From positions 1 through 28,034 of IMG/VR virus record IMGVR_UViG_3300047276_000276: a stretch of DNA of 28,034 nucleotides; one strand, written 5' to 3'. This document shows, one piece after another, positions 3,538 to 28,034 of this stretch. This DNA is from a virus. A program made the position numbers and the translations under genes. The notes beneath the pieces were generated by a model that worked only from the letters and a program-made list of their open reading frames with translations, had not been told where the DNA came from and did not search any database. How positions within the stretch are numbered: the stretch's first letter is position 1; every line of letters starts with the position of its first letter.

Positions 3538-3734
3538 CCAATCGCTTCCCGCCGATGGCGGAGCAGTCCTGCGCCAACTGCAGATACGCGCGGCAGTTTG
3601 AGTACGAGAGGAAGGCACTGCTGCAGTGCCGTCAGCGGCCGCCTGAATACAGCACTCGCTACCACCCCCGCTGGCCAACGGTTTATCCGTCGAGCTGGTG
3701 TGGCGCCTGGGCTCCCACGGAGGGCGAGGCATGA
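3534..3734 (+). CDS. Small cysteine-rich putative zinc-binding protein
   Basis: 66-residue protein with four cysteines spaced as a metal site: C13-x2-C16, C32 and C56, the last in a WCG motif preceded by a proline/aromatic-rich stretch. The pattern CxxCryaR...CRqrPP...WPtVyPssWCGaW is one I recall from small bacterial and phage proteins of unknown role; I do not know a function. ATG 3534 overlaps the resolvase stop by four bases and its own stop overlaps the next gene by four bases, so it is embedded in the same operon. It may be a structural metal-binding adaptor or a host-takeover factor, but the sequence alone does not say. Confidence 0.7.
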   Translation: MTNRFPPMAEQSCANCRYARQFEYERKALLQCRQRPPEYSTRYHPRWPTVYPSSWCGAWAPTEGEA

Positions 3735-10645: not shown

Positions 10646-10654
10646 TTACTCTCA

Positions 10655-10697
10655 AGGGAGGCAAGTTCTACACCCCCGTAACTGAACGGGCCTCCCT
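10655..10697 (+). other. Long hairpin enclosing the capsid promoter
   Basis: Perfect eight-base arms AGGGAGGC (10655-10662) and GCCTCCCT (10690-10697), then an inner stem GTTC (10665-10668)/GAAC (10684-10687) and a further TAC/GTA pairing around a run of five C. The loop region is the promoter at 10668-10682. Read-through RNA would fold strongly here, so this may be a processing site (RNase III-like, as before T7 gene 10) or a weak barrier; RNA started at the inner promoter would contain only the right arm. Confidence 0.55.
10668..10682 (+). promoter_or_regulatory. Phage promoter for the major capsid gene
   Basis: CTACACCCCCGTAAC is the same motif as at 2521 and 27612, with the final GTAA identical to the end of the Syn5 promoter as I remember it. 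It is the equivalent of the T7 phi-10 promoter upstream of the capsid gene. It would give a leader of about 80 bases carrying the hairpin at 10722-10746. Confidence 0.6.
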
Positions 10698-10721
10698 AGG
10701 GAGACAACCCGGTGCAGAGGG

Positions 10722-10746
10722 GAAGAAGTCAGCCGATCACTTCTTC
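10722..10746 (+). other. Stem-loop in the capsid mRNA leader
   Basis: GAAGAAGT (10722-10729) and ACTTCTTC (10739-10746) form a perfect eight-pair stem with a nine-base loop, extendable by G-U pairs to the following TT. It ends 11 bases before the capsid ATG. No Shine-Dalgarno lies in the usual window; the nearest purine run (GAGGGGAAG) is at the foot of this stem, so folding would bring it close to the start codon. Could stabilise the mRNA or control initiation. Confidence 0.5.
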
Positions 10747-10757
10747 TTTGAAACACC

Positions 10758-11768: not shown

Positions 11769-11806
11769 GCTTCTATCCGACTCCCGCGAGTCGAGTGGAA
11801 TGAGTT

Positions 11807-11834
11807 GGGGCTGGCTACGGCTGGCCCCTTTTTT
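11807..11834 (+). terminator. Intrinsic terminator after the capsid gene
   Basis: Nine-pair stem GGGGCTGGC (11807-11815) with GCTGGCCCC (11820-11828), two of the pairs being G-U, closed by a TACG loop. C(UACG)G is the very stable UNCG tetraloop class. Six T follow (11829-11834). It is placed like T7 T-phi just after gene 10. Confidence 0.85.
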
Positions 11835-11855
11835 GTGCGGCTCGTACAGTTAGGG

Positions 11856-11870
11856 CTACGGCCCCGCAGA
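11856..11870 (+). promoter_or_regulatory. Phage promoter upstream of tail tubular protein A
   Basis: CTACGGCCCCGCAGA matches the tail-fibre promoter at 12 of 15 positions. It begins 19 bases before the next start codon, exactly as the SSB promoter does, and lies 22 bases after the capsid terminator, so it would restart transcription of the tail genes. The core has C where the others have T (CCCGCA), so it may be weaker. Confidence 0.45.
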
Positions 11871-11874
11871 GAAA

Positions 11875-12537
11875 ATGGGCACCGCCAACCAGTCACTGAC
11901 GCCAGGGCGGACCAGCCTTCTCGAGGCCGTCAACGTGCTGCTCGAGAACATCGGCGAAGCGCCGGTCGAAACACTCGAGAACGAGCAGGTTGCGGAGGCT
12001 CGAATCGCTGAGCGCACCCTGCTCGAGTTTCACAAGGAAGGGCAATCCAGAGGGTGGGCGTGGAACACCGAATCCGGCTACCCCTTCAGCAAGGACGTCA
12101 CCACCAACACGATCATCGTGCCGGCCAACGTGGTGCGGTGGTCGCCCGATCCGTACCAGTGGGCTGGGCGCTTTCAGCTGCGTGGGCAGAAGGTTTACGA
12201 CCGCGAGAAGCGCACCTCAACTCTGGGTTCTGACATCACTCAGGTGCTGGCTGATGTGGTGTTCCTGCTGCCGTGGGATGACTGCCCAGAGCCTTTCAAC
12301 CGCTGGATCACGATTCGATCCGCTCGTGTCTTCAGTGATCGCGTCCTGAGCTCTGACGCCCTGTTCAAGTACACGGCCATCGACGAGCAGGCAGCGCTGA
12401 ATGAGCTGCTGCGGATGGAGGCCGAGAACGACCACTACAACCTGCTGACCGGCGGCCCTGGCCTGCGCCCCTTCCCGACTTACAGCCCGGGCTACGGCCT
12501 GCTGCGCGGACCGGGAGGAGGGCACCTCATTGGCTGA
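11875..12537 (+). CDS. Tail tubular protein A, T7 gp11-like
   Basis: 220 residues (T7 gp11 is 196). Forms the dodecameric gatekeeper ring joining portal and nozzle and carrying the tail fibres. The N-terminal pattern LTPGRTSLLEAVNVLLENIGEAPVETLE, then ARIAERTLLEFHKEGQSRGWAWNTE, is the characteristic start of this family, followed by WSPDPYQWAGRFQLRGQKVYDREKRT and a WDDCPEPFNRWITIRSARVF segment. The C-terminal tail is Gly/Pro-rich. ATG 11875 sits four bases after the promoter-like site, so it would be read from a very short leader. The gene end carries a strong GGAGGAGGG that serves the overlapping next gene. Confidence 0.95.
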   Translation: MGTANQSLTPGRTSLLEAVNVLLENIGEAPVETLENEQVAEARIAERTLLEFHKEGQSRGWAWNTESGYPFSKDVTTNTIIVPANVVRWSPDPYQWAGRFQLRGQKVYDREKRTSTLGSDITQVLADVVFLLPWDDCPEPFNRWITIRSARVFSDRVLSSDALFKYTAIDEQAALNELLRMEAENDHYNLLTGGPGLRPFPTYSPGYGLLRGPGGGHLIG

Positions 12538-15043
12538 ACTCTTCTCCTACACGATCCCCAACCTGTTCCAGGGGATCAGCCAGCAGCCCGATGCGCAGCG
12601 TGACCCGACCCAGGGCGAGCTGCAGATCAATGGCTACTCGTCAATTTCGGAAGGGCTGAGGAAGCGGGAGCCAACGCAGTCGCTAGCCAAGATCAGCACC
12701 ACCGATTTGGGCGACGTGTTCGTCCACTCCGTGCTGCGAGACAGCGCAGAGAAGTACTTGGTGGTGATCAGCAAGACCGCCATCCGGGTGTTCGATCTGG
12801 CCGGCACTGAGTACACCGTCAGCGCCGCGGCGGGTGCGTACACCTACCTGTCGTCGGTGGTGAGCGCCAAGAGCGACATCCGCGCCGTCTCCATCGGCGA
12901 CTACACCTTCATCTCCAACACCCGGGCGCTGCCGGACATGGACAGCACCCTGCTAGCCCCGGCGACCGCCAGGCCCGCCACCCATGAGGCGCTGGTCTGG
13001 GTGAAGGCCGCCAACTACGGCCAGAAATACACCGTCACCTTGAACAGCACGACGGTGGATGTGACCACCGCCACGGCGGCCGTGATCGTGGTCGGCAGCA
13101 CGCTGACCGAAACCAAGATCAGCGCGGCTGAAATCGCCGAGAACATCAAGACCGGCCTGGCCGGCGTGAGCGGCGTCACGATCGAGCGCAGTGGATCGGT
13201 GCTGCACTTCAAGAGCAGCAGCGCCATGACGATCAAGGCGACGGATGCCCGTGCCAATGCCGACATCACGGCGATCACCAACAGCGTTCAGGTGTTCACC
13301 GAGCTGCCGACCATCGCGCCAGTCGGCTACCAGATCGAGATCACCGGCGACCCGGGCAATGCCTGGGATGGCTACTACGTCGAGTTCAAACCGCGCTCCG
13401 GCCAGGGCGCTTTCGGCGAGGGCTCCTGGAACGAAACCGTTGCCCCTGGTGCCGAGTACCGCATCAAGCCGAGCACGATGCCGCACGTCCTGGTGCGCAA
13501 GCCGGACAACACCTTCTATTTCGGGCCGATGGATGGCTCGACCATCGCCACTGGCGTCACGCTGCGGAAGTGGGGTGATCGCACCTGTGGTGACTATGTG
13601 ACAGCCCCCGATCCCAGCTTCATCGGGAAGGGCATCCAGGATCTGTTCGTCTTTAAGAACCGCCTGGGGATCCTGGCTGACGAGGCCGTGGTGCTCAGCC
13701 GCCCCGGCGAGTTTTTTGAGTTCTTCCCGGAGACCGTCACCACAACGCTGGCGACCGACCCGATCGACATCAAGGCCAGCGGCACACGGGTCAGCGTGCT
13801 GCGTTACGCGGTGCCGTTCCAGGACGAGCTGATCCTGTTCTCGGACCAGACGCAGTTCCGCCTCTCGAGCAACGACACCACGCTGACCTCAGCCACGGCG
13901 CAGATCACCGCGCTGACCCAGTACGAGATCGACACCCGCTGCCGGCCAACGCAGATCGGCAACGGCATTGTCTTCGCCCAGGTGGCCGGCGACTGGACCA
14001 AGTTCCGGGAGTTCAGCATCCGCGGCAGCGGCACCTCGATCGCGGCCGATGCGGTTGAGCTGACCCAGCAGGTAGCGGCCTATGTGCCGAGCGGGGTGTT
14101 CCGCATCGCGGCCGATGACACCAGCAACAGCTGGTACGCCATCAGCGACAGAACGGGCTACCTCAACCGGATCTACGCGCAAAAGTTCTTCCTGCGAAAC
14201 ACGGGCAACGGCGTCGAGCGCCTGCAGAACAGCTGGAGTCATTGGCAGCTGAGCGGTGCCGACAAGGTGCTCCAGGTGCTTGCCATCCAGGAGGTGCTCT
14301 ATCTGCTGGTGCAGTACGGCGCAGAGGTCTGGCTGGAGAAGATGCCGATTGCGGATCAAACCGCAGAGAGCGCCACTAAGCCCACCCCACTGCTGCTCGA
14401 TCGCTGGGTGTCCACCACCACGGACACTCCGACAGCGATTCGCGTTGCGGCGGGCACCTACAACGCCACGACGGGCATTACGACGTGGACGCTGCCCTAC
14501 ACGATCAAATCCAAGACGCAGGCTTGGAGCTCGTTCTCGACGGCCAATGGCGGCGTGCTGCTCGGGGAAGCAAGCAGCGGCAGCACAATCACCGCGCGTG
14601 GCAACTGGAGCGCCAAGGCGATCTTTTTTGGCGAGGTCTACGACTTCCAGTACCGCTTCACGCGGTTCAAGGCGATGCGCGAGATCGGCAGCGGCAAGAC
14701 TGCTGCCAACAGCCTGCGCACGCAGGTCAGAAAAGCGCTGCTCAGGTATCACGAGACGGGCTATTTCGAGGCGCACGTCAAGGCCGAGCGCCGCAGCACT
14801 GCTGTCTACAAGTACAGCGGCGTGATCCTTGGCAGTCGCAACAGCGTGGTGGGTCAACCCGCCTGGAACTTCGACGCCGCAACAGAGGACAAGCGCTACC
14901 GCGAGGGGGTGTTCACCATCCCGGTTCTCAGCAAGGGCGACAACTGCGTGGTGGAGATCCACAACGCATCGGCCCTCCCTTGCAAGTTCAGCACTTGCGA
15001 GTGGATCGGGCTGATCACCGGCAAGGCCAAGTCAATGCAATGA
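12530..15043 (+). CDS. Tail tubular protein B (nozzle), T7 gp12-like
   Basis: 837 residues (T7 gp12 is 794). Forms the hexameric nozzle of the short tail. The start YTIPNLFQGISQQPDAQRDPTQGELQINGYSS is the family hallmark (T7: IQG...SQQP-x-R). Later landmarks include FIGKGIQDLFVFKNRLGILADEAVVLSRPGEFFEFFPETV, TDPIDIKASG and VPFQDELILFSDQTQF near residues 365-445, as in the gp12 central propeller. It starts with TTG 12530, overlapping the previous stop by eight bases, with GGAGGAGG about eight bases before; the rare start is believable because the family N-terminus begins exactly there. It ends overlapping the next gene by four bases. Confidence 0.95.
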   Translation: MAELFSYTIPNLFQGISQQPDAQRDPTQGELQINGYSSISEGLRKREPTQSLAKISTTDLGDVFVHSVLRDSAEKYLVVISKTAIRVFDLAGTEYTVSAAAGAYTYLSSVVSAKSDIRAVSIGDYTFISNTRALPDMDSTLLAPATARPATHEALVWVKAANYGQKYTVTLNSTTVDVTTATAAVIVVGSTLTETKISAAEIAENIKTGLAGVSGVTIERSGSVLHFKSSSAMTIKATDARANADITAITNSVQVFTELPTIAPVGYQIEITGDPGNAWDGYYVEFKPRSGQGAFGEGSWNETVAPGAEYRIKPSTMPHVLVRKPDNTFYFGPMDGSTIATGVTLRKWGDRTCGDYVTAPDPSFIGKGIQDLFVFKNRLGILADEAVVLSRPGEFFEFFPETVTTTLATDPIDIKASGTRVSVLRYAVPFQDELILFSDQTQFRLSSNDTTLTSATAQITALTQYEIDTRCRPTQIGNGIVFAQVAGDWTKFREFSIRGSGTSIAADAVELTQQVAAYVPSGVFRIAADDTSNSWYAISDRTGYLNRIYAQKFFLRNTGNGVERLQNSWSHWQLSGADKVLQVLAIQEVLYLLVQYGAEVWLEKMPIADQTAESATKPTPLLLDRWVSTTTDTPTAIRVAAGTYNATTGITTWTLPYTIKSKTQAWSSFSTANGGVLLGEASSGSTITARGNWSAKAIFFGEVYDFQYRFTRFKAMREIGSGKTAANSLRTQVRKALLRYHETGYFEAHVKAERRSTAVYKYSGVILGSRNSVVGQPAWNFDAATEDKRYREGVFTIPVLSKGDNCVVEIHNASALPCKFSTCEWIGLITGKAKSMQ

Positions 15044-15498
15044 GATTCACCGAACCCGCCAATCACGACATCGAGCACCTGGCCGCGCTATTGCGGGCCG
15101 AGGACCGCCGCGAAGCAAGGGCCAGTCACGGCCTGGGGGCCAGGGAGGCGGTGTGGCAGAGCTGGAACGGCAGCTCGGAGCGCCACGGAATCCTGGGTGA
15201 TGACGGCGATCTGGTCGGGCTGTGTGGCGTCTGCCCGGACTCCGGCGCCGGAGAGATCTGGATGCTCGGCACCGACGAGCTGGTGGCCACGCGCAGTCAC
15301 CAGGTTCAACTGGCCCGCAAGGGGCGGGAGTGGGTGAATGAGCTGCTGCCGGATTGGCGGTTCCTTCACAACTGGGTGTTTGCGGCCAACACCCGATCGG
15401 TGGCATGGCTGCGGTTCCTGGGCTTCACCGTTCATCCGGCCCAACCCCATGGGCCCTACGCCCAGCTGTTTCGTTATTTCTGCAGGGAGGCGGACTGA
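15040..15498 (+). CDS. GNAT-like protein, position of T7 gp13 (internal virion protein A)
   Basis: 152 residues. The fold looks like a small acetyltransferase: an N-terminal helix (HDIEHLAALLRAEDRREA), strands around HGILGDDGDLVGLCGVCP, EIWMLGTDELV, and the last part NWVFAANTRSVAWLRFLGFTVHPAQ, which is the classical N-x3-W-L-x-x-L-G-F ending of GNAT proteins. A weak or degenerate CoA-binding region suggests a structural rather than catalytic use. Podoviruses often have such a GNAT-like protein (DUF2833 type) between gp12 and gp14, where T7 has gp13. The start ATG 15040 overlaps the nozzle stop by four bases; the much longer upstream open frame is only overlap. Confidence 0.75.
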   Translation: MRFTEPANHDIEHLAALLRAEDRREARASHGLGAREAVWQSWNGSSERHGILGDDGDLVGLCGVCPDSGAGEIWMLGTDELVATRSHQVQLARKGREWVNELLPDWRFLHNWVFAANTRSVAWLRFLGFTVHPAQPHGPYAQLFRYFCREAD

Positions 15499-16376
15499 TG
15501 GCATTTGGATGGGATGACGCCATTGGCCTTGGCCTCGGGCTCGGCCAAATGGGCATGGGTCTTTTTGGCGCCAGCGCTCAGAACGCATCCGCCAGACAGC
15601 AGTACAAAGACGCGCTGAAGTTTCAGAAGGTCAGCGACAAGTACGCCCGCTGGTCCTCCAAGATCAACGCCCGCATCGCAAACACCCAGAGCAAGTACCG
15701 CTACTGGGCCGAGACGGTCAACTACAACCAGAACCTCAGCTACGTCAACCAGCTGCGGAACTACGAGCTGGTCAAGGCCTACAAGCAGGCCGATGTTGTG
15801 CGCCGCACGCGCACCTCTGCCATGGCCGACTTCAGCCTGCAGAGCCAGGCACTGAGCGAGGGCATCCGGGAACAGGCCTCTCAAGACGCCGTGGCTGCCT
15901 ACCAATACGCCCACCAGGCGATGAAGGCGCAGTCGCAGGTGGTGGCCAGTGGCCAGGAGGGCGCCAGCGTCGATCGGCTGGTGAACGACTACGCGCGTCA
16001 GCTGGGTGACTTCGAGGCGCTCAAGCAGATCAACCAGAACTTCCGGGAGCGCCAGTACACGCGCGAGCAGGCCGGCCTCGTGGCGAACTACGTCAGCCGA
16101 TACAACAGCCAGCAGTTCTATGACCCTGCCCCGTATCAAGACCCGGTGCGGCCGTTTGCGCCGCTGCCGACGCTGGTGATGCCGCAGCCGCCGTCGATGA
16201 CGGGCGCAGGGCCGAGCCAGGCGGCCGCCAACTTGACCATGGGCAACGCGGTGCTGGGCGGCATCAACACCGGCCTGAGTGTGTGGCAGGGCCTGCAGCA
16301 GTTCACATCAAGCGGCAAAGCCGGCGCCGCAGCGGTCGGCAACTTGACCGACGGCATCCGCCAATACGGGGGCTAA
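15498..16376 (+). CDS. Internal virion protein B, T7 gp14-like
   Basis: 292 residues (T7 gp14 is 196). In T7 this core protein is ejected and forms the outer-membrane part of the DNA channel. The N-terminus has a Gly-rich hydrophobic stretch (AIGLGLGLGQMGMGLFGA, residues ~6-23) suited to membrane insertion, followed by a long helical domain with many Gln, Tyr and Asn (YNQNLSYVNQLRNYELVKAYKQADVVRRTR, EGASVDRLVNDYARQLGDFEALKQINQNF). The C-terminal 90 residues are Pro/Gly/Ala-rich. This layout is typical for gp14 of cyanopodoviruses. Start ATG 15498 shares one base with the previous stop and has AGGGAGG at 15484-15490. Confidence 0.85.
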   Translation: MAFGWDDAIGLGLGLGQMGMGLFGASAQNASARQQYKDALKFQKVSDKYARWSSKINARIANTQSKYRYWAETVNYNQNLSYVNQLRNYELVKAYKQADVVRRTRTSAMADFSLQSQALSEGIREQASQDAVAAYQYAHQAMKAQSQVVASGQEGASVDRLVNDYARQLGDFEALKQINQNFRERQYTREQAGLVANYVSRYNSQQFYDPAPYQDPVRPFAPLPTLVMPQPPSMTGAGPSQAAANLTMGNAVLGGINTGLSVWQGLQQFTSSGKAGAAAVGNLTDGIRQYGG

Positions 16377-16382
16377 TCAGCA

Positions 16383-19115
16383 ATGGCACGCGAACAACTA
16401 CCTCTTGGGCAGATCCAGCCGGCAGCCCGCCCGGTATCGAGCTTTGTGCAGCCAGGGCTGATCGAAACAGCTCGCCCTGCGCAGCCCCAGCAGATCAACC
16501 TCTCCAGCGATCGGATCGGCCTGGTGCAGACCGCTGCCGCGCCGAACGTGCAGGGTTACGACCAAGGTGAGCAGCTGGCTCGAGCACTGGCTCCATTCAG
16601 CCAGAACCTCACCAAGCTGATGAACTATGGCGTCCAGCTGTACGCCTCCAATGAATACCAGCAGGGCCAGAACGAAGCGCTGAAGGCCTACACGATTGCC
16701 AACCGTCAGCTGATGGTTTCGGCGGACGAGTACGCAGCCGAGAACCGTGACGTCGCCCGGCAGGATCCCGTTGCCGGCCTGCTGATGGATCGGGCCAACC
16801 CGTTCCGCACGGCTGGCCGCCAGAACCAGCTGAGCAAGCTGGCTGCGGTTGAGATGCCGATGATCATGCGGCGCGAGTTCAACCAGCGCCGTGCCGATCT
16901 GGCACTGATGGATCCCGCCGACCCCAAGGTCAATGCGGTCAAGGCCGCCGCCATCGCCCAGGTCAATCAGAAGTTTGGGCTGAGCGAGTTCACCCCCGGG
17001 TTCATGGACTACGTCCTGCCGCGGATGAACAACGAGTGGGACAAGATCACCCAGGACCAGATCGACGACCACAACAAGTACCTGGACGAGACGGTCCACC
17101 GGATCGCAGCGGCCACCGTCTATGGCCGCGTGAAGAAGGCCATGGCGGACGGGGTGCCGCTGTCTCAGATCGTTGCCAACGAAACCAGCTATCTCGATCA
17201 AGAGGCGCGGCGCTTCGGCATCCCTGGCAAGGGCCAGGAGATGAAAGAGAAGGCGATCAAAAACGCCATCTCTATGGCGATGGATCCGCAGACCGGTGTG
17301 ATCGACCGAGAGGCCCGCGCCGTGATCGGCTCGATCTTGGTGGGCCCGCCGGACTCCAGCGGCTATCGGCCCACGGCGCAGCAGATGTACGGGCTGGAGA
17401 TCCTCGAGGCGACCGACAAGACCGACCAAATGAACTACCGCGCCCGCAAGGCGCAGCAGGAAGTTGTCGGCCAGCGCTATGCCGACGAGGTCGCCGGGGC
17501 AACGCTCGGTCTGCCGGATGGGCCAGAGAAAGCCGCTCGACTCGAGCAGATCAGGGGGCAGTACCAGGGACAGCTGCCGCTGTCGGAAATGCTCAAGATC
17601 GAACAGAGCACAACCAACGTCACCGAAGACGTCACCAACCGCGGCTTTGCTGACGACGCCGGTGCGTCCTTTCTTCAGGAAGCCGACGCCTCGTATGGCA
17701 GCGATTGGGATCCGGCTCAGTTCGACCGGCTATTCCAGCTCGAGCTGCAGAACGTGGCGCCGGACAAGCGCGCTCAGTTCTCTGCTCAGTACGCCGAAGT
17801 GCGCCGCCGGAAGGAAACGCAAAAACAGAACATGCCGGACAGCCTCATCAATGGCGCCATCGCGCGCCAGGTGAAGGCAAATCTCGAGGCCAATTACCCG
17901 GACACGGTTACGGCTGCGATTCGCGGTGCGCGCAACATCGAGGAGCTGATGGCTACTGGCGACGCCAATGCCGCGGCATCAGCAGCTCGGCAGAACACTG
18001 CGTTCCGCACCTCGATCTACCGGGCGATCGACGCGAAGCGGGCTGAGCTCAACCGCGACCTCACCCCGGCCGAGCAGCAGCAGGTGATCGATTTCACCCT
18101 GACCGGGTTCCAAAAGAACGCACCGGCCACTTGGAGGACCCTGTTCCCCGGCACCAACGGCCAGCCGAGCACGGTGCCGTTCGGAACCACGCGCCCTGGC
18201 GCTGATCGCCCGGAGCCTCCCCAGCCTCCCCCAGGCCGCCGTGCGCAGGGAGCGCCCACCTTTGGTGTGGCCCAGCTGGACACCATTCCCAATCGTGAGC
18301 AGCGACTGCAGAACTGGCGCGGCGAGGCCGTGCTCAGCGCATCGGAGACAGCTCGCCTAATCCCTCTGGCCCTCGGCGGCCAGTCGCTGCCGGCACCGCT
18401 GGCCCGTGCGGCAAAGGCCGCCGGCACCAGCCCGCAGCAGTTCCTGCTGCAGCAGGCCGACTTCTACCCCAACGACATCCGGCTGACGCCAGCGCAGCGC
18501 TCGCAACTGGGGAGGAGCGGCCAGCAGGCCAGGGCAACGCAGAGCTACTCGCAGCAGGTGGCCGCAGCGCAGCGCAGCTCGCAGTCGCCCTTGGCGGCTG
18601 CCGGCATGTGGGCTCTGGATGCGCTGACCGGCACGGCCCCTGCCTACGCCGGCTCAATGCAGAGCTTTTCCGCAATGAGGCAGCCAATGGCTACTGCTTC
18701 CGGCCCAGTCAATCTCAACCGCCTTCGCCAGGCGATCTTTGGCAAAGAAAGCGGCGGCAACTTTGGGGCCGTCAACCCAGTCTCCGGCGCGCTTGGCATT
18801 GGCCAGGTGATGCCTGAAAACGTCGGGCCCTGGACGCAGAAGCACTACGGCCGCCGGCTGACGCCGAAGCAATTCCTCGCCAGCAAGGAAGCGCAGCTCG
18901 CTGTTGCCAATGGCCAGCTGGGCGAAATCATCCAGCAACAACTCAAGGCTGGATACAAGCCAGACGTCGCCATTCGCCGCGCTGCATCCATTTGGTACAG
19001 CGGGCGTGGCGACCTCTATGACGACGGCCGCCCGCAGTATTCCAACGGCCGCCGGTATCCATCCATCCGGGAATACACGACCGACATCCTCAATCGCTAC
19101 CGCAGCGGGAGCTGA
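16383..19115 (+). CDS. Internal virion protein C, gp15-like, with C-terminal lytic transglycosylase domain
   Basis: 910 residues (T7 gp15 is 747). N-terminal ~700 residues are the helical core/ejection protein, with LARALAPFSQNLTKLMNYGVQLYASNEYQQGQNEAL near residues 65-105 typical of gp15-like proteins. Between about 600 and 660 lies a Pro-rich linker. The last ~130 residues are an SLT-type domain: IFGKESGGNFGAVNP (putative catalytic E789), SGALGIGQVMP and IRRAASIWYSGRG (A-x-x-x-WYSG matching A-YN-G of the family). It would open peptidoglycan during DNA entry. In T7 this activity is at the N-terminus of gp16 instead, so the domain has a different address here. Start ATG 16383, six bases after the gp14 stop, has only a weak G-rich ribosome binding site. 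Confidence 0.85.
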   Translation: MAREQLPLGQIQPAARPVSSFVQPGLIETARPAQPQQINLSSDRIGLVQTAAAPNVQGYDQGEQLARALAPFSQNLTKLMNYGVQLYASNEYQQGQNEALKAYTIANRQLMVSADEYAAENRDVARQDPVAGLLMDRANPFRTAGRQNQLSKLAAVEMPMIMRREFNQRRADLALMDPADPKVNAVKAAAIAQVNQKFGLSEFTPGFMDYVLPRMNNEWDKITQDQIDDHNKYLDETVHRIAAATVYGRVKKAMADGVPLSQIVANETSYLDQEARRFGIPGKGQEMKEKAIKNAISMAMDPQTGVIDREARAVIGSILVGPPDSSGYRPTAQQMYGLEILEATDKTDQMNYRARKAQQEVVGQRYADEVAGATLGLPDGPEKAARLEQIRGQYQGQLPLSEMLKIEQSTTNVTEDVTNRGFADDAGASFLQEADASYGSDWDPAQFDRLFQLELQNVAPDKRAQFSAQYAEVRRRKETQKQNMPDSLINGAIARQVKANLEANYPDTVTAAIRGARNIEELMATGDANAAASAARQNTAFRTSIYRAIDAKRAELNRDLTPAEQQQVIDFTLTGFQKNAPATWRTLFPGTNGQPSTVPFGTTRPGADRPEPPQPPPGRRAQGAPTFGVAQLDTIPNREQRLQNWRGEAVLSASETARLIPLALGGQSLPAPLARAAKAAGTSPQQFLLQQADFYPNDIRLTPAQRSQLGRSGQQARATQSYSQQVAAAQRSSQSPLAAAGMWALDALTGTAPAYAGSMQSFSAMRQPMATASGPVNLNRLRQAIFGKESGGNFGAVNPVSGALGIGQVMPENVGPWTQKHYGRRLTPKQFLASKEAQLAVANGQLGEIIQQQLKAGYKPDVAIRRAASIWYSGRGDLYDDGRPQYSNGRRYPSIREYTTDILNRYRSGS

Positions 19116-19118
19116 TCC

Positions 19119-22100
19119 ATGCCCATCGAGTACGTCACCGATCCCCGCACCGGGAAAGTTGTTGCCAAGGGCTCACTGGGCTTTGGTCAGCCTGTTGTCC
19201 CTGAGCGCCCCCCAGCCCCTCGCGCGAAACCCAAGCCGAAACCCAAGACAAAGGCCAACAGCTTCTGGGGCGTCGGGTCTGGCGGCTTCTCGCTGGGCAA
19301 GCTCGGCAACGACCTTCGCTACGAGCTCAACCAGCTGGCGACAGACCCGCTGCGCAGCGTTGAGCGCGCGGCCAGCACCACCATGCGCAGCACGGCGGCC
19401 GGCATTGCCTTCAGACAGGGCAGCCTTGGCGCCACGGCGGCGACCGCCAATGCCGTTCGCGCTGGCATCGAATGGAAGCAGCGGGCCGGCGGCCGCAAGC
19501 AGACCGACTACACCACCAGCCCAGCGGGCCGCGCCGTCGACCGGGTGGTCGATCACGTCTACCGCTCGGCAGGGGTAACGCCTCCATCGCAGATGACGCC
19601 CGAGGAGAAGGGCGTCGATGACCTTCGCAGCGCACTGACCCTTGGCGTGGCCGGCGGTGTTGGTGTTGGCGTTGGCCTGAAGGCGCTGAGTGGCGTCCGC
19701 TTTGTGGGCCCAGCAGCGCAGAGCCTGGCCAACGCCATGAACCCAGCCCTGGCGCAGTCCTGGCAGGGCGCTGCATCGCGCCTGGCGTTTGATGCCGCGG
19801 TAGGCGAGGCCGTCACCGCGCCGTTGGATTACACCGCCACCGGCGGCAGCGCTGTAAGCCTGGTCGATGCGGTGCTTGGCACCAAGCTCGACCCGGTCAA
19901 GCCAGGCATGGCTTTCCCTGATGCGGCCGCAGCCTCATTCATCCCCAACGTCGCGTTCGGCGTCGGCCTAGGCGGCGCGTTCATGGGCATCAATCGGGCA
20001 CGGAAAGCCCGCAGCGTGGTGCAGCAGACCGTCGAGCGGCCCCGGGCGGAGCTCGAGGGCGCTGGCCTGGTCCAGAGCGACCCCGACACCGGCGCCACAG
20101 CGTTCACTCCAGAGGCTGTGCAAGGCCAAAGCCTGCGCGAGGCCAATGCCGCGCTGGAGGAGAAGTACGGAATCAGCACGCCAGAGCCTGCGGCCGCACC
20201 AGAGCCAGCGGTCCCCAGCCAGGTGATGGAGCCCGGCGGCGCCGTCACGGAAGGCGAACTGCCAACTGCTGATCCCGGCATCGACTTCTGGGCAATCGAC
20301 TACGACCCCGAGCTGCCGGAGGCTGACGTCGCACTCAGCCAGATCAAGAACGCCTCTGACGCCGAGCTGCTCGACACCGTGCGCAGTGGCGGGCCAGTGC
20401 TGCAGGAGCTGGATCAGCGCATGGCCACCCGCCAGCCGCTTGAACCAGACCCCGCGCTGAGCACTGAGCTGAACACGGCACCGAGCGACAGCCTTGCCGA
20501 TCCGATTACGCCCTTCGCGCAGCAGTGGCAGCAGCTGGGCAAGCGTGAACCGCAGCAGCTGATCAATGTCCTCCACCCCGAGGTGAACCCCGACCTGGCC
20601 GCAAGAGCCCAAGCGCTCACAGGCAAGGAGTGGGAGGAGCTCACCCCGTCCGATGCGGTGCAAACGCTGCAGGCAGCGGCTGATGACGGCTCGATCGTCA
20701 TCCCCAGCCGCATGGTGCCCGGCCAGCAAATGATGAAAACGGGCGACCTCAAGATCGACCCCGCCCGCTTCCAGTTCAAGCAAGGCACTGACGCCCGTGG
20801 CGTGCAGCGGGGCTCCTCCCTCGAGGGCGTCGACCGCTGGAACACCGACATGGAGCAGCCGGTCGAGGTCTGGCAAGACCCGGCTGACGGCGAGTTCTAT
20901 GTGGTCAACGGCCACAACCGCTTCGCCCTGGCGCAGGCCAAGAACATCCCGACCCTGCCGATCAAGGAGATCTTTGCCGAGTCGCCGGAGCAGGCAAAAA
21001 CCGTCGGCGCGCTGAGCAATATCGCCACCGGCGGCGGCCGGCCAGTCGATGCGGCCTGGTTCATCAAGGGAGCTGGCATCAGCGAGCCTGGCCAGCTGGA
21101 GGCGCTGGGCGTCCCCCTGGCCCCCGACTCCGGCAACGGCCTTTCGGGCTTCCAGCTCAGCCGCCTGCCGGAGGACATCCTGCGCGCGGTCGAGAGCGGC
21201 CAGATCAAGGAGCGCCAGGGCCGGCTGATTGGCGGCAGCGGGGCTGATGAGGCCTCGATGCGCGGCGCCTACCGCTACCTGGTCGAGAACCCCGGCACCA
21301 CCGAGGGCCGCCTGAAGGGGATGCTCGAGCTGAGCAAGCAGATGACCGGCGAGGCCCAGGCGACGGGCGAGCAGACCGACCTGCTGGCCGGCACCGACTG
21401 GGATCAAACCTTCAACAAGCAGATGGTGGCGGTCGCCGACCTCGCCGACGAGGTGGCCACCCTGCTGAAGCGGGAGAAGCGGCTGTTCTCCATGGCGGAC
21501 GCCAACTCGGCGGCACTGGAGGCCAAGGGCAGCCGAATCGACAAGGCCAGTGCGCAGCAGGTGGCCGAGGCCAATGCCCGCGCCATCGACTACTTCCAGC
21601 GCACCTGGATGGAGACCGGCCCGATCCGCGACCTGCTCAATGAGGGCGGCAATCGCGTGGCGGCCGGCGAGAACAAAGGCGCGATCGCCAAGCAGATCAA
21701 GAACCGCCTGGTGGGCCAGCTCGCTGATCTGATGGGCGAGCAGGCCATCACCCGGGCCGACGTGGTCCAGGAGGATCTGCTGGCCCAGGCGCCGCAACAG
21801 CTCGACGAGCTACTGCCTGATGACCGCCAGGCGATGGAGATGCTGGCCATCCAGCGCGCCATCCAGAACGGCGAGGTGCGGCCGCCTGAGACGCCGATCC
21901 CCGATCTGCCAATGGATTCAGGCGTCGACCTGACGAAGGTGCAGCGCGACCTGGCCGAGAACACCATCACCGACGACGTGGTGCAGGCGATGGCGGACGA
22001 GCTGGAGCTCCGCGATGCCTACCGCCAACTGGATGACGTCATCGCCCAGGAGACCGAGAAGGCCGCGCGTGACGCCGAGGGCTACGACCTCAAGACCTTC

Positions 22101-24209
22101 GATGAGAAGAAGGCAGCGGGCGTAGTGAGCGACTTCCAGGAGCCGCCGCCAGGGAGCGCCGCCGCCAAGCGCCGCGCCGAGGAGATTGACCGGCTCGAAC
22201 GCAACATCCGGCAGATCGAGCAGTCCCGCCTGCCGGCCGCCGAGGCCCGCGACCCCGAGTTTGCGCAGCAGCTGCGCGACCTCGCCGCAAAGCAGCGCAG
22301 GCGGCTGCAAGAACTCACCGGCCAAGACCTTGCGCCGCCCGAGGTGTTCACGTTCCCGGCTGACCTGGCCAAATCAGCTCCCCGCTACGGCATGGCGAAG
22401 GTCGAGTTTGCGTCCGACCTGGATCGTGCCGCTTACATGCTGCGCGACGAGGCCAAGAAGTCGAAGGGCGAAACACGCCTGATCCAGGCACTGGAGGCTG
22501 CGGGCTACAACATCACCGCGATCCGCACGCACGGCGCCAAGGTCCGCGATGTGATCAAGGGCGTCGTCACGCAGCAGACCGGCTCAGCCGCCGCGCCGCA
22601 AAAGGCGATGAACCTGCAGGTGCCGGAGCAGGGCTTCGGCGGCGCTGCGCCCGTTGCCGCCAAGGCGACTGCCCGCGTCGAGGCGACGGCCGTCGAGATC
22701 CCTGCTGGCGCCAGCCGCAAGATCACGGCCAACACCGGCGAGGGCAGGGTGGAGGCTGCCGCCCAAAGCCTGCAGAGCTGGACGGCCGGGGTGCTCGGCC
22801 AGCCAGTGCCCCTTGACCAAGCGAGAGCCCTGGTGAAGGCCAAGGGCGCAATCCTCGACCCCGACAAAATCCCTGGCCTGGATATGGATGCCGCCAGGCA
22901 GGACTCGTCGAGAGGGGTAAGCGACACGCCCGCCATGCAGGCCGTCGCCCAGGCCTACCGCCAGTTCTATGGCGTCGAGTCGCCAGGCCTCCGCGCCGCC
23001 CGATCCAGCTCCGCTATCCCCCCAGGCAGCGGCATCCCCAGCCGCCTGGTCGACGAGTGGCTATTCGAGAAGCCGGACGGCTGGGCTGCATCTGCAGCGC
23101 AACAGCTGATGGCGACAAAGAAGCCCAAGGACTTCACAAAGCGCGAGGCGTTCCTGGTCGACTTCGCGGCCGAGGTGCGGGACTTCGGAGGCGAGCAGCG
23201 CTTCCGCGATGCCTGGCTGAACAGGCTTGAAAGCGGTGCCATGGAAGGAGCAGCCGCTGTCGAGAGGGGCGATCTCGATGGCTGGCTCGCCACCTACAGC
23301 GAGCGCTCAGCGGCGGGTCTGGCCAAGAACGCCACCGACGAGCTGCTGACCGCAATGCGCGAAGGCATCCGCGTTTCAGGCATCAGCCCCGAGCGGGTGA
23401 AGGTGCTGGATCAGATCCTGATCAGCCGCGAGTTCGGCCCGGATGAGGCGTATCAGGCAGCGAAAGCCTGGGATCCAGTCACAGCGCGGATCGTCGGGGA
23501 GCGCCCTTACGGAGACGCCGCCAGGTTCATCGATAGCCGGACCGCCGGACTCCGAGTTCCTTACACCTATCCCTCACCTCTTCAAGACTCAATCTTTCTT
23601 TCTTTGGAGCTGCAGCTCTCGAAAACCTTCGGACGCGGGCGGTCACTGCAGAGACGAGGTCGATCAATGGTTGGAGACGCCTATCACGAGGCCTTCCATC
23701 GCCTTCAGGAGTTCCTCTATCCGGCTGAGGCGAAGGCATTGGGGACTCCAGAGGCCAAGGCCGAAATGGTCGACCTAATTCAAAAGGGTGGCGGCACTTA
23801 CGAGCCTGGCATGGACATTAGTGAAATCCAGGCCGAGTCCTTCGCCGTGTGGGCGTTGCGCCGCTTTAAGGCGCGTCAAGGCAGCACTGTGCAGCGCCTG
23901 TTCTCCCACATGGGCGAACTGCTGAATGTTGTCGGTGCCGCCGTCAGGGTGGTGCGCAAGAAGAGCCCCACGCTCATCGACGTATTTGAGGACGCGTGGG
24001 CGGGCGGGATCGGCGAGCGGTCCGAGCAGGTGCTGGGGAAACTCCCCAACGCCGACTTACTGCGCGTTGCCGGCGACGTCGACAGCTACCTGGCCGATGT
24101 TCGCCCTGACATCGCTCAAAGAGTTCAGGCCGAGGTTGACCGCAGGTATGCGCAAGTCGAAGCCGCCCTGGATGATTGGAACAATCGCAACCGCGAAGGA
24201 GGCTGCTGA
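19119..24209 (+). CDS. Giant internal virion protein with DdrB-like ParB domain and HExxH metallopeptidase motif
   Basis: 1696 residues, by position an ejected core protein between the gp15-like and gp16-position proteins. N-terminus: basic Pro/Lys-rich stretch (residues ~25-48), then Gly-rich hydrophobic segments near 173-190 and 273-291 that might insert in a membrane. Residues ~545-720: DPARFQFK, a beta-rich segment with VVNGHNRFALAQ (N597-H599-R601), and GFQLSRLPEDILRAVESG...RLIGG, the arrangement of the DdrB-like ParB superfamily domain seen in large polyvalent phage proteins. Residues ~750-1080: long helices including a coiled coil. Residues ~1519-1575: zincin-like site H1523-E1524-A-F-H1527 with a likely third ligand E1569 or E1573 in EIQAES. 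The combination suggests host-defence countering or protein processing after entry, as inference. ATG 19119 follows GGGAG by a few bases. Confidence 0.8.
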   Translation: MPIEYVTDPRTGKVVAKGSLGFGQPVVPERPPAPRAKPKPKPKTKANSFWGVGSGGFSLGKLGNDLRYELNQLATDPLRSVERAASTTMRSTAAGIAFRQGSLGATAATANAVRAGIEWKQRAGGRKQTDYTTSPAGRAVDRVVDHVYRSAGVTPPSQMTPEEKGVDDLRSALTLGVAGGVGVGVGLKALSGVRFVGPAAQSLANAMNPALAQSWQGAASRLAFDAAVGEAVTAPLDYTATGGSAVSLVDAVLGTKLDPVKPGMAFPDAAAASFIPNVAFGVGLGGAFMGINRARKARSVVQQTVERPRAELEGAGLVQSDPDTGATAFTPEAVQGQSLREANAALEEKYGISTPEPAAAPEPAVPSQVMEPGGAVTEGELPTADPGIDFWAIDYDPELPEADVALSQIKNASDAELLDTVRSGGPVLQELDQRMATRQPLEPDPALSTELNTAPSDSLADPITPFAQQWQQLGKREPQQLINVLHPEVNPDLAARAQALTGKEWEELTPSDAVQTLQAAADDGSIVIPSRMVPGQQMMKTGDLKIDPARFQFKQGTDARGVQRGSSLEGVDRWNTDMEQPVEVWQDPADGEFYVVNGHNRFALAQAKNIPTLPIKEIFAESPEQAKTVGALSNIATGGGRPVDAAWFIKGAGISEPGQLEALGVPLAPDSGNGLSGFQLSRLPEDILRAVESGQIKERQGRLIGGSGADEASMRGAYRYLVENPGTTEGRLKGMLELSKQMTGEAQATGEQTDLLAGTDWDQTFNKQMVAVADLADEVATLLKREKRLFSMADANSAALEAKGSRIDKASAQQVAEANARAIDYFQRTWMETGPIRDLLNEGGNRVAAGENKGAIAKQIKNRLVGQLADLMGEQAITRADVVQEDLLAQAPQQLDELLPDDRQAMEMLAIQRAIQNGEVRPPETPIPDLPMDSGVDLTKVQRDLAENTITDDVVQAMADELELRDAYRQLDDVIAQETEKAARDAEGYDLKTFDEKKAAGVVSDFQEPPPGSAAAKRRAEEIDRLERNIRQIEQSRLPAAEARDPEFAQQLRDLAAKQRRRLQELTGQDLAPPEVFTFPADLAKSAPRYGMAKVEFASDLDRAAYMLRDEAKKSKGETRLIQALEAAGYNITAIRTHGAKVRDVIKGVVTQQTGSAAAPQKAMNLQVPEQGFGGAAPVAAKATARVEATAVEIPAGASRKITANTGEGRVEAAAQSLQSWTAGVLGQPVPLDQARALVKAKGAILDPDKIPGLDMDAARQDSSRGVSDTPAMQAVAQAYRQFYGVESPGLRAARSSSAIPPGSGIPSRLVDEWLFEKPDGWAASAAQQLMATKKPKDFTKREAFLVDFAAEVRDFGGEQRFRDAWLNRLESGAMEGAAAVERGDLDGWLATYSERSAAGLAKNATDELLTAMREGIRVSGISPERVKVLDQILISREFGPDEAYQAAKAWDPVTARIVGERPYGDAARFIDSRTAGLRVPYTYPSPLQDSIFLSLELQLSKTFGRGRSLQRRGRSMVGDAYHEAFHRLQEFLYPAEAKALGTPEAKAEMVDLIQKGGGTYEPGMDISEIQAESFAVWALRRFKARQGSTVQRLFSHMGELLNVVGAAVRVVRKKSPTLIDVFEDAWAGGIGERSEQVLGKLPNADLLRVAGDVDSYLADVRPDIAQRVQAEVDRRYAQVEAALDDWNNRNREGGC

Positions 24210-27200
24210 TGTCTAGCTGCGAAGAGCTCTATCAAGAGAGACAGCAACTGCTTGCCGAAAAGCGAGCGATTGAGGACGCCGGCAACCGCCTTCGCTTGCG
24301 GGCCTCACGGGCGCCAATGCCCGATGGCGGCGACTATCTCGACGGCGTTCCCGAAAATCAACTCAACGAGGAGCTCCGTCGTCAGACCGAACTGCTCGAC
24401 AACGATCAGTTCAATGCCTACATCGAGGCAGCGCTGGAGACCAAGCCGCGCGTCGATATTGGCGGCGACCAGCCGATCAACTTCAAGCAGCTGCTGGCCA
24501 ATTACGACATCGAGACCGCTGAGGACTACGCCAAGCTCGCCCAGCTGCTGACCATCTCCAACCGGCGCCTGAACCCTCGGGACTACGCCTTCATCACCGA
24601 GCAGCTCGGTCAGGAGCGCATCGCTCAGCTGGTGGTCGACAGCTACCGCGATCTGAACCTGGACGTGAACAACGTCATGGCCCTGATGGCCAACGACGCC
24701 GCAGCGTTCAACGCCATCCCCGAGCGGATGATCCGCCTGCGTGTCGCCAAGGAGGGCTACCGCGATGCCTACCTCGACAAGCTCGACGAGATCAGCACCG
24801 CCATCCGCGCCGGTGACGTCCCGCCTGACCTGAAGGGTTCAGCGTTCAAGGCATGGAAGCTGGCCCTGGTCTCCGAGCGCCACTACAGCCTCGCCGGCCG
24901 CCGTACTGGCCAGGCCCTCTACGCCCGCCGTGGTGCCGTGGACAGCCCGGGCGCCATGGACACCGAGCTGGCCGACCAGCTAGCCGACGGACGCCTGTTT
25001 GAGCCAGATGCACCGGAAGTCCAAGGCGCGCTGACGATGACGCCAGAGGAGCTGATGCGCGACGACCACTTCGCCCGGGTGGTCGATGCCGTGGATGACG
25101 CCAAGGTCAACCCAGAGCGGGCGGCCGAAACCATCGAGCAGCTCAAGCTCATCACCCAGCTCGATGGCGTCGACCCCAAGAGCCGCCTGGGTGACAAGCA
25201 GTGGTTCAACCTGCAGATGCGACGCGGCAATGCGCTGGCCAAGGACAGCCAGCTGCTGAACGCAATGACCCAGTTCAAGACGAACGCGGGCAGCAACATC
25301 GGGATGTTCTTCCTGGGCCCCTACCGCCAGGCCTACGAGAACGTCGGCCTGCTGACGTCGGCCGGCACCAAGCTGACCCGTGAGCAATGGGAGGCCACCA
25401 AGGAAGGCTTTGGCGTCGCCTGGAACAGCGTCAAGTTCGGCCTCGACCTAACCCGCGCGTCCGCGCGCGAGCTGTTCACCAGCGCCTTCAAGGGAGGCGT
25501 CGCCCCGTTTGGCGGCAACGCCGACACCTATGGCCGCCAGATGTCGACCAACCAGCAGCTCAAGGCCGAGCTGCAGCAGATGCTCGACATGCCGTTCCGC
25601 ACCGGCCGCGATTCCGGCGTCTGGTCGATCCCCGAGAACGTCGGCGTCTTCCGCAACAAGATGCACGCCGCCTGGCGGCTGTGGCTCGAGAGCATGGGCG
25701 CCAGGGTGCTCACGCCCGGCTTTCGCATGATGGCCGGCGTCGACAACACGGCCGGCTACTTCTTCCACCTGTTCAAGATCAAGAACGACCTGGAGATCAG
25801 GGCCAGGCGTGATGGCGCCCAACTCGGCCTGTTCGATCAGCGCAGCCGTGATGAGTGGGTGCAGTCCGAGCTGGACAAGGCCTTCTATCAGTTCGAGCCG
25901 ACAGAGGAAAACATCAAGAGCTTCCGCCGCGAGAACGCCCCAGGCGCCGACGTGACGGACCAGGAGATCGCCGAGCGCATCCTCAACGAAAAGGTCGGCG
26001 AGACCTACGGCTACCCGACGCTCGATACGCCGAACTCCATGGCCGCCGAAGGGTTCTCGCAAGAGATGCGGATGCAGAACCGCCCAGAGGAGGGCACGAT
26101 CACCGGCGGCGTTTTCAACGCCATGCAGGGCGCCCGAAAGCACTGGTTCTTCGATCTGGCGTTCCCTTATGTGCAGTCGCCGTTTATGGGCACGCTGCTG
26201 GACTTCCGCCTCGCCAGCGACTGGCTGACCGTTCCGGTGCAGGCAGCCTTTGGCAAGAGCGCAACGCCAGAGCAGGCGGCTAGAGCCAAGGCCGCGTGGG
26301 CGGTTTCGGCTCAGCTACTGGGCCTGTTCGCCACTCTGGACGCCATGGGACTGATCATCGGCAACGGGCCGATCGACCCACGCGAGCGGGAGGAGTGGCG
26401 CATCGGGCTGCAGGCCCAGGGCAAGGCGCCAAACACCATCGCCGGCACCCCCTTCCTAGGCGGCATCCCCGTGCTGAACACCCTGTTCCTGTGGAAGGAC
26501 ATCAAGGAGACGTTCGTGACCGGGGCGTACTCCAAGTACGACCAATACAACGCCCTGGGCGGCGTGATGCAGGTGCTCACCGGCCACCTCATGCGCCAGA
26601 CCGCCCTGGGCCAGGTGAATCAGCTGATGGAGCTGTTTCTCGAGCCCAACCGCTCACCAGCCCGACTCCTTGGCTACCTGGGCAGTGGCCAGATCCCGAA
26701 CATCGGCCTGATCCGCGACGCTGAGCGCTTCACCGGGATGCAGGGCCGCAACGTCTTTGCCAGCACCGCGCCGAGCGCATCCCAAAACTTCCAGGGCGCT
26801 GACGACAGCCCGCTCGAGAAGATCGAGCGCCAACTGCGTGAGCTCGCCTACGGCACCCTGGGCCTGACTGGCCTAATCGGCGGCGCCTACAAGGAGCGCG
26901 ACTGGCTTGGCAGCAAGATCAAGCTCGCCTGGGGGCAGCAGCTGGCCGACGCGCTGAAGGACCGCTTCTTCCCTCAGGTATGGCCCGAGGCCGACGAGAA
27001 GCTCTATGCCGAGCTCGACGCCCAGAACCAGCTCAACCCTCCCAGCGCCCTGATGTCAGGCGTGCTCGAGGGCGTGGCAATGAGCGACGACCTGAAGAAG
27101 GAGTACAACGACACCTACGCCACGATCAAAGGTGAAATGTCGCCGACGGCCCGGCTGGCCATCGCCGGCAAGGCGCCCTCCGTCAGCTTCCAGCTGGCCT

Positions 27201-27625
27201 TCCCCGTCGACACCCCGACCGGCATCACCATCCCAAACAGCAAGACGGTCAGCTTCCCTGTCGTGCAGTTCGTGGAACCACACGTCAAAGGCCGCACTGT
27301 TCAGGAGGCGCTGCGTTCGCTGATCAACTCGCCCGTCTACCAGGCGATGCAGGACGATCCACGCACAACGGCAGACCTCAAGGCGCGGGACATGCCGGCC
27401 GCAGAGCGCCGCCGCAAGGCCGCTCAGGTGCTCATCAATGCAACCAAGGAGTATTACCACCTGATTACAAGGGATCAGATCAACACCAGCAGCACTTCAG
27501 CGGCGCAGGAATGGCGTGAACGGCGCGACATCATGCGCACTGACAACCTAGAGCGCAACACGGATGGAGGGCTGCGTGGCTTTGCTGAGGCCTTGAACGG
27601 CGCCACAATGACTACAGCCCCGTAG
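24209..27625 (+). CDS. Large internal virion protein at the gp16 position, polyvalent-protein-like
   Basis: 1138 residues (T7 gp16 is 1318), last of the internal virion proteins and directly before the tail fibre, so it is the positional counterpart of gp16. It lacks the N-terminal transglycosylase of T7 gp16. N-terminal third: helical, charged. Around 480-560: GVDNTAGYFFHLFKIKNDLEIRARRDGAQLG, which resembles the D-x-x-F-K-x-x-x-Y-R region of large polyvalent proteins (LPD38-like). Around 640-720: WFFDLAFPYVQSPFMGTLLDFRL and a hydrophobic helix AVSAQLLGLFATLDAMGLIIG that could be membrane-embedded, consistent with an inner-membrane channel. Start ATG 24209 overlaps the previous stop by one base and has AAGGAGG at 24196-24202; an in-frame TTG further upstream is less likely. 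Confidence 0.8.
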   Translation: MSSCEELYQERQQLLAEKRAIEDAGNRLRLRASRAPMPDGGDYLDGVPENQLNEELRRQTELLDNDQFNAYIEAALETKPRVDIGGDQPINFKQLLANYDIETAEDYAKLAQLLTISNRRLNPRDYAFITEQLGQERIAQLVVDSYRDLNLDVNNVMALMANDAAAFNAIPERMIRLRVAKEGYRDAYLDKLDEISTAIRAGDVPPDLKGSAFKAWKLALVSERHYSLAGRRTGQALYARRGAVDSPGAMDTELADQLADGRLFEPDAPEVQGALTMTPEELMRDDHFARVVDAVDDAKVNPERAAETIEQLKLITQLDGVDPKSRLGDKQWFNLQMRRGNALAKDSQLLNAMTQFKTNAGSNIGMFFLGPYRQAYENVGLLTSAGTKLTREQWEATKEGFGVAWNSVKFGLDLTRASARELFTSAFKGGVAPFGGNADTYGRQMSTNQQLKAELQQMLDMPFRTGRDSGVWSIPENVGVFRNKMHAAWRLWLESMGARVLTPGFRMMAGVDNTAGYFFHLFKIKNDLEIRARRDGAQLGLFDQRSRDEWVQSELDKAFYQFEPTEENIKSFRRENAPGADVTDQEIAERILNEKVGETYGYPTLDTPNSMAAEGFSQEMRMQNRPEEGTITGGVFNAMQGARKHWFFDLAFPYVQSPFMGTLLDFRLASDWLTVPVQAAFGKSATPEQAARAKAAWAVSAQLLGLFATLDAMGLIIGNGPIDPREREEWRIGLQAQGKAPNTIAGTPFLGGIPVLNTLFLWKDIKETFVTGAYSKYDQYNALGGVMQVLTGHLMRQTALGQVNQLMELFLEPNRSPARLLGYLGSGQIPNIGLIRDAERFTGMQGRNVFASTAPSASQNFQGADDSPLEKIERQLRELAYGTLGLTGLIGGAYKERDWLGSKIKLAWGQQLADALKDRFFPQVWPEADEKLYAELDAQNQLNPPSALMSGVLEGVAMSDDLKKEYNDTYATIKGEMSPTARLAIAGKAPSVSFQLAFPVDTPTGITIPNSKTVSFPVVQFVEPHVKGRTVQEALRSLINSPVYQAMQDDPRTTADLKARDMPAAERRRKAAQVLINATKEYYHLITRDQINTSSTSAAQEWRERRDIMRTDNLERNTDGGLRGFAEALNGATMTTAP

Positions 27626-27626
27626 T
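27612..27626 (+). promoter_or_regulatory. Phage promoter upstream of the tail fibre gene
   Basis: CTACAGCCCCGTAGT differs from the SSB promoter (2521) at only two of 15 bases. It overlaps the end of the preceding gene, whose TAG stop codon (27623-27625) is part of the CCCGTAG core. It begins 21 bases before the GTG start of the tail fibre gene. Confidence 0.6.
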
Positions 27627-27632
27627 TATGCC

Positions 27633-28034
27633 GTGTCCGCGACGCCATTCTCGTACCGCCAGTACGCGGGCAACGGGTCGACAACGACCTTTTCTGTCCC
27701 GTTCCCGTATCTGCTGAAGGCTCACGTCAAGGTCTACATAGGCTTCAACATCCTTGACGGCACTTTCAGCAGCGAACTGGCGGATGGCGTCGGCTTCAGC
27801 TGGACCAGCGGCACCCAGATTCAAACCACAACAGCCCCCGCCAGCGGTCAAACGCTGACCGTGATTCGCCAGACGCCGAACACCACGCGCCTGGTCGATT
27901 GGCAGGACGGCAGCAACCTGATCGCCGACGATCTCGACACCGCCGACCTGCAAAACCTGTACGTGGTGCAGGAGCAGCAGGACCGTACAGATGCCGGGGC
28001 GCTTGCGGCGGTGGCTGCCGATGTCGCCGCCGAC
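27633..28034 (+). CDS. Tail fibre protein, T7 gp17-like N-terminal domain (partial)
   Basis: First 134 residues of a protein that runs off the window. The sequence matches the virion-attachment domain of T7 gp17: YRQYAGNGSTTTFSVPFPYL (T7 YQLDGSNRDFNIPFEYL), KVYIG, then TLTVIRQTPNTTRLVDWQDGSNLIADDLDTADLQ (T7 [33 protein letters not shown]), followed by the start of an Ala/Asp-rich helix. This domain anchors the fibre to the tail; the receptor-binding part lies beyond the window. GTG 27633 is the only reasonable start: a stop lies at 27609-27611 in the same frame with no ATG between, and the family sequence begins right there. Confidence 0.92.
   Translation, partial: MSATPFSYRQYAGNGSTTTFSVPFPYLLKAHVKVYIGFNILDGTFSSELADGVGFSWTSGTQIQTTTAPASGQTLTVIRQTPNTTRLVDWQDGSNLIADDLDTADLQNLYVVQEQQDRTDAGALAAVAADVAAD

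Follow-up and report, generated by a model that had tools for sequence, protein, structure and literature searches.

A giant protein with a ParB-like module and an exchangeable, predicted protease cassette at the ejection locus of T7-like phages

A giant protein encoded by an extra gene of the T7-like ejection locus carries a C-terminal enzyme cassette that near-identical phages swap on a fixed backbone. We describe it in IMGVR_UViG_3300047276_000276, a contig of 28,034 bases from an uncultured virus that was analyzed over its entire length (hereinafter the window). The protein combines an internal module with a predicted ParB/Noc/KorB-type fold with a C-terminal domain predicted to be a zincin metallopeptidase. 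We posit, with a probability of about 0.55, that it is a fourth T7-like ejection protein of the polyvalent type, in which a DNA-holding ParB domain is joined to an interchangeable, host-directed protease payload.

The giant-protein gene and its genomic setting

The window has a T7-type RNA polymerase gene at its left end and a late block in the order portal, scaffold, capsid, gp11 and gp12 (by PHROGs), a gp14-like gene, and three genes coding for proteins of 910, 1696 and 1138 aa, after which comes a T7 tail-fibre N-terminal domain. The synteny around the giant-protein gene is T7-like, and its location inside the gp14–gp16 block, 5′ of the tail fibre, makes it a member of the ejection locus. 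The preliminary description had proposed a single giant reading frame between the genes in the gp15 and gp16 positions, and this frame is indeed open throughout (Table 1). It begins directly past the stop of the 910-aa gene, and its end overlaps the start codon of the following gene (ATG at 24209), whose Shine-Dalgarno sequence (AAGGAGGCTGCTGATG) lies within the 3′ end of the giant frame. With this ribosome site of its own, the ATG is more likely to be the start of the downstream gene than the listed TTG at 24176.

Among the neighbors, the protein in the gp15 position probably has a lysozyme-like C-terminus, and its P-SCSP1 counterpart matches SLT_3 with an E-value of 1e-13. Searching the PDB with a profile of the 1138-aa protein gave no match. 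The close relatives of the window are all metagenomic contigs. Since its closest cultured relative is the Synechococcus phage S-SRP02 (nozzle 66%, capsid 63%), the host is likely a freshwater picocyanobacterium. Elsewhere in the window, an NrdR-like zinc ribbon protein (3698–4315; E 2e-8) is coded among the replication genes, and ARAGORN reports a tRNA-His (anticodon atg) at 9683–9777 on the minus strand, which lies antisense in the portal gene and is probably a false positive.

Table 1. Positions of the giant-protein gene, its neighbors and its domains in the window (res, residues of the giant protein)
Feature	Position	Strand	Description
gp14-like protein	15354..16376	+	340-aa frame; Pfam T7_gp14 E 1.9e-4, under the curated cut-off; start codon provisional
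gp15-position protein	16383..19115	+	910 aa; RpfB-like match E 0.12
Giant-protein ORF (extra ejection-locus gene)	19119..24209	+	ATG start, 1696 aa, uninterrupted
TRUNK1 (res 64–290)	19308..19988	+	Conserved N-terminal body; own HMM, found in most homologues
ParB module (res 543–714)	20745..21260	+	NTPase fold, VVNGHNR 595–601, invariant N634, then HTH-like helices
HEL (res 900–1006)	21816..22136	+	Conserved, charged, helical; own HMM; also in S-SRP02 gp46
PRE module (res 1077–1169, 'APRYGMAKVEFASDLDRAAYML...')	22347..22625	+	Own HMM; also in P-SCSP2
Exchanged cassette	22646..24345	+	Covers the C-terminal module of the giant and ~45 codons at the start of the next gene; replaced in L011
MZ module (res 1192–1286)	22692..22976	+	Own HMM; mobile accessory domain; other combinations elsewhere
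Zincin-A domain (res 1407–1633)	23337..24017	+	Own HMM; predicted
HEAFH (H1523, E1524, H1527)	23685..23699	+	Predicted zinc ligands and catalytic Glu
E1569 of ExQA	23823..23825	+	Predicted third zinc ligand; aligned between zincin types A and B
gp16-position protein	24209..27625	+	1138 aa counted from the ATG

A Pfam search with the entire 1696-aa protein returned no match, and its conserved regions were delineated with HMMs of our own. TRUNK1 includes hydrophobic stretches at residues 172–190 and 273–291 by hydropathy, and the exchanged region has its left edge at a TGSAAAPQKAMNLQVPEQ stretch that overlaps the PRE module. Across residues 1–1170 the comparison of the window with the 97%-identical relative L011 gives a dN/dS of 0.065, indicating that the giant protein is under purifying selection.

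A ParB/Noc/KorB-type module

A ParB-fold domain had been proposed from the initial reading of the sequence, and several lines of evidence bear this out. Residues 540–667 match a PHROG with an E-value of 6e-25, and the VVNGHN motif and N634 are invariant across 53 aligned homologues of the region. Its structure model (pLDDT 80.6) retrieves Caulobacter ParB (6t1f, E 1.6e-6), Noc and KorB in Foldseek searches (also 7nfu and 8qa9), with the match spanning both the NTPase domain and the HTH over about 206 columns. As modeled, the region has the fold of the ParB/Noc/KorB NTPase–HTH type, with the HTH-like helices at about residues 674–723 extending slightly beyond the end of the module as delineated. 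The GHNR box is conserved, the ENxxR box is reduced to its N, and the residue is variable where the CTPase ParBs have their catalytic Glu. The initial assignment of the domain to the DdrB type is dropped because both comparisons that bear on it fail: PF18763, the DdrB-like ParB family, is not matched by any of 7 records even at E ≤ 10, nor is it among the matches of the 53 aligned homologues, and hhalign of the ParB profile to P1 DdrB gives a probability of 5.8%, a comparison of low power given that the target is a single sequence.

Two other matches to this region were set aside. A sequence profile run against the PDB recovered only armadillo-repeat and Bcl-2 proteins, which we judge spurious, and we take the PHROG label "portal protein" for an effect of family annotation, as the phage has a separate portal gene.

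A predicted zincin domain

The C-terminal region bears an HExxH motif at residues 1523–1527 along with a downstream glutamate, the combination characteristic of zincin metallopeptidases. The motif, noted at the outset as one that should be conserved in homologues, is retained in all 58 zincin domains found, 29 of type A and 29 of type B; by chance, an HExxH appears in 0.17% of shuffled copies of the giant protein. By a simple pattern search, ExQA is present in all the type A domains and in 24 of the 29 type B domains, and around the motif type A can be aligned with type B at 90.5% probability (E 1.4e-6). The family MPTase-PolyVal (PF18818) gave no match; type B weakly resembles SprT-like proteins (E 0.078), and the structure model of the region is too poor for a fold search (pLDDT 42). 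The domain is thus predicted to be a zincin from its motif and conservation. A scan of cellular genomes with the type A domain yielded only 4 loci.

Exchange of the C-terminal cassette

The exchange is seen in the comparison with L011, which shares 97.4% DNA identity with the window over positions 9113–22645 and 96.6% over 24346–28034, with the intervening segment, 22646–24345, being replaced. The window codes here for a type A zincin region of about 500 aa and L011 for a type B region of about 350 aa; along with the cassette, the first ~45 residues of the next protein also differ. Likewise, residues 1–480 of the giant protein are the same in L004, which has type A, and in L009, which has type B, and the 10.8 kb of DNA before the cassette region are 96.6% identical between the two. 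The replacements extend beyond zincins: L055 combines a related trunk and ParB module with an ART-like C-terminus, whose last 75 residues are 53% identical to type B, and L086 has, relative to L083, about 570 nt of additional in-frame sequence coding for an ART-like domain. In L012, the cassette is shared with the window at 70% and the remainder at 40%.

Between the window and L004, both with zincin A, dS rises from 0.35 in the trunk to 0.88 in the cassette, which suggests that alleles are probably exchanged within a single zincin type too. The dN/dS in the cassette is approximately 0.2. Zincin A and a next protein with a C-x-x-L-F/Y-x-x-R/K N-terminus are almost completely linked, with one exception on the zincin B side (L081); we do not claim a functional pairing, as DNA proximity could explain the linkage. 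At the junction itself (24206–24230 in the window, and its equivalents), the giant protein ends in xGC and the next protein starts with a CDDxFQ-like sequence in nearly all relatives. These cysteines may or may not be functionally relevant, and a reading of the conserved C-terminal "EGC" as a functional tag was discarded as it is largely explained by the GGAGG ribosome site of the next gene and the stop–start overlap.

Spread of the family and its payloads

A scan of viral contigs with the ParB domain recovered at least 242 loci, of which the best 80 were read; in most of those sampled the domain is part of similar giant proteins. The carriers of ParB giants include the cultured Prochlorococcus phages P-SCSP1. 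On the TRUNK1–ParB–HEL backbone, our HMMs identify zincin A, zincin B, three ART-like types and the domains DX, DY and MZ, singly or in combination, or no payload at all. The payload varies even among the members of one group of relatives that are mostly 76–93% identical over aligned columns. ART1 resembles PARP (E 3e-5), and the three ART-like types match ART-PolyVal (PF18760) with E-values of 0.013–0.064, under the cut-off. ART-like domains occur without a zincin in L055, L086, L089, L091 and L098, many complete homologues have no zincin, and most zincin-bearing relatives show no second recognized payload.

Several further architectures were recorded. Nine loci (L144–L147 and L149–L153) combine the trunk and helical region with zincin A and lack the ParB module. 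DX (L092, L098 and L087), DY (L084 and L092) and MZ are mobile domains of the payload region with no convincing match in Pfam or PHROGs. In P-SCSP1g (L014, 10657–18345), a 2563-aa protein annotated just as hypothetical unites ParB, zincin and ART-like domains. Ruegeria phage 45A6 (L016), which is not assigned to the Autographiviridae, codes at 9778–21537 for a protein of 3920 aa that has both a ParB-like and an HExxH region.

The extra gene had been thought absent from canonical T7-like phages, and in agreement with this P-SSP7 has only two large genes at its ejection locus (gp15, 837 aa, and gp16, 1245 aa), whereas S-SRP02, MedDCM-OCT-S31-C1, P-SCSP1 and P-SCSP2 have three, with middle proteins of 1016, 1484, 2563 and 1596 aa, respectively. 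The 1016-aa protein of S-SRP02, gp46, shares the HEL region with the giant protein (E 1e-18), and a check of its domains found no ParB and no HExxH or zincin. Accordingly, ParB and zincin are not essential to the locus, and the extra protein is a feature of this lineage onto which the enzyme domains look to have been grafted. The BFVD entry for the MedDCM-OCT-S31-C1 homologue reads "Large polyvalent protein associated domain-containing protein"; in the P-SCSP study, the homologous genes have no functional annotation, and internal virion proteins are merely suggested for these phages (PMC9860041).

Relationship to known systems

Polyvalent proteins were described by Iyer et al. in 2017, who noted their paucity in cyanobacteria and classed P1 DdrB, a ParB domain with a C-terminal metallopeptidase (MPTase), among them (PMC5512222). 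The giant protein shares with this class a large multidomain late-gene product that unites disparate activities (a ParB superfamily domain and a zincin, with ART-like domains in relatives), mosaic domain sets and a predicted injection with the DNA, predicted here from its position. It differs in being an extra gene of a T7-type ejection operon, in its NTPase–HTH ParB, in the exchange of payloads among near-identical genomes and in that its relatives infect cyanobacteria. With P1 DdrB, which is virion-associated, it has in common a ParB superfamily domain and, C-terminal to it, an HExxH domain, but a sequence relationship between them is undetectable (hhalign 5.8% and 0.2%) and the PF18763 match is lacking. 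The preliminary suggestion of a new system was overstated in that the polyvalent class, including the union of a ParB with a metallopeptidase in P1 DdrB, is already known; as far as the accessible literature goes, what is new is the location in a T7-type operon and the cassette exchange seen here.

The locus resembles that of T7 gp14, gp15 and gp16 in gene order, size class and the presence of a gp14-like protein and a probable peptidoglycan hydrolase as neighbors. It differs from it in the added fourth protein and in that the lysozyme-like domain is apparently on the gp15-position protein, a placement also known from K1E (PMC8954989). As in polymorphic toxins (PMC3482391), a constant body bears a C-terminal enzyme cassette that is replaced among close relatives, although the giant protein would be carried in a phage particle and no immunity gene or secretion-related domain came up in passing. 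ParB, Noc and KorB clamps likewise feature an NTPase fold followed by an HTH; however, the module here is embedded in a giant protein, has no ParA partner in view and has its ENxxR box reduced.

Proposed role and alternatives

In the reading that we favor, an ejected protein with an exchangeable payload, the N-terminal trunk and helical region would pack the giant protein into the virion core, and it would pass through the tail together with its gp14-, gp15- and gp16-like partners, as its position and size suggest. It occupies the same place, between the gp15- and gp16-position genes, in MedDCM-OCT-S31-C1, P-SCSP1 and S-SRP02. The ParB/KorB-like module, going by its predicted fold, would hold or shield the incoming DNA, and the zincin would be an interchangeable payload that cuts a host protein, most likely a defence or regulatory one, in the first minutes of infection. 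Recombination would swap the payload cassette, taking the start of the next gene along.

The zincin might instead be a maturation protease that cuts the giant protein or the neighboring ejection proteins, at assembly or after entry. P1 DdrB is processed prior to packaging, and self- or partner cleavage is predicted for its C-terminal MPTase (PMC5512222); moreover, the cassette reaches into the N-terminus of the following ejection protein, as though an enzyme stayed linked to its substrate or docking partner, and the usual lack of a second payload in zincin-bearing relatives is in keeping with this. We nevertheless consider it unlikely, as the many complete homologues without a zincin include several with ART-like domains, and a swap to a much diverged zincin or to an ART-like domain leaves the remainder nearly unchanged. 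The ART-like domains without a zincin imply that self-processing cannot be the sole role and that the protease is not needed for payload release in general, which favors an effector; processing by the zincin is possible in the members that bear it. It is more doubtful still that the giant protein mainly serves anti-restriction or DNA handling, with its ParB binding to or sliding on the entering DNA to block nucleases or organize the genome and the C-terminus being secondary. No module of the family is as widespread as ParB, and it matches the clamp structures over both of its parts, but it is not of the DdrB type, it has no conserved Glu at the catalytic position, and it is dispensed with in the nine loci that keep trunk, HEL and zincin. 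Least probable, in our estimation, is an ordinary structural ejection protein with the ParB-like and HExxH regions as mere building blocks of the internal core: S-SRP02 gp46 would fit this, as would the strong variability of ejection proteins in size and domains (PMC8954989), but the catalytic motif is conserved across two diverged zincin groups and the replacements are other recognized enzyme domains.

Building on the payload reading, we tentatively propose a broader picture, which is possible rather than probable: T7-like cyanophages may have a polymorphic effector system in their ejection apparatus, with a constant ParB-clamp carrier and an exchangeable protease or ADP-ribosyltransferase, whose cassette is exchanged along with a docking segment that fits it on the following ejection protein, such that carrier and channel stay compatible.

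Implications

P-SCSP1 on Prochlorococcus MED4, whose homologue has ParB, HExxH and an ART-like domain, offers a cultured phage for testing these proposals. If they hold, the particles of phages on abundant aquatic cyanobacteria would deliver to the host pre-made enzymes that can be exchanged quickly, host resistance could be compared with the cassette types of near-identical phages, and the polyvalent proteins would be extended to T7-like cyanophages.
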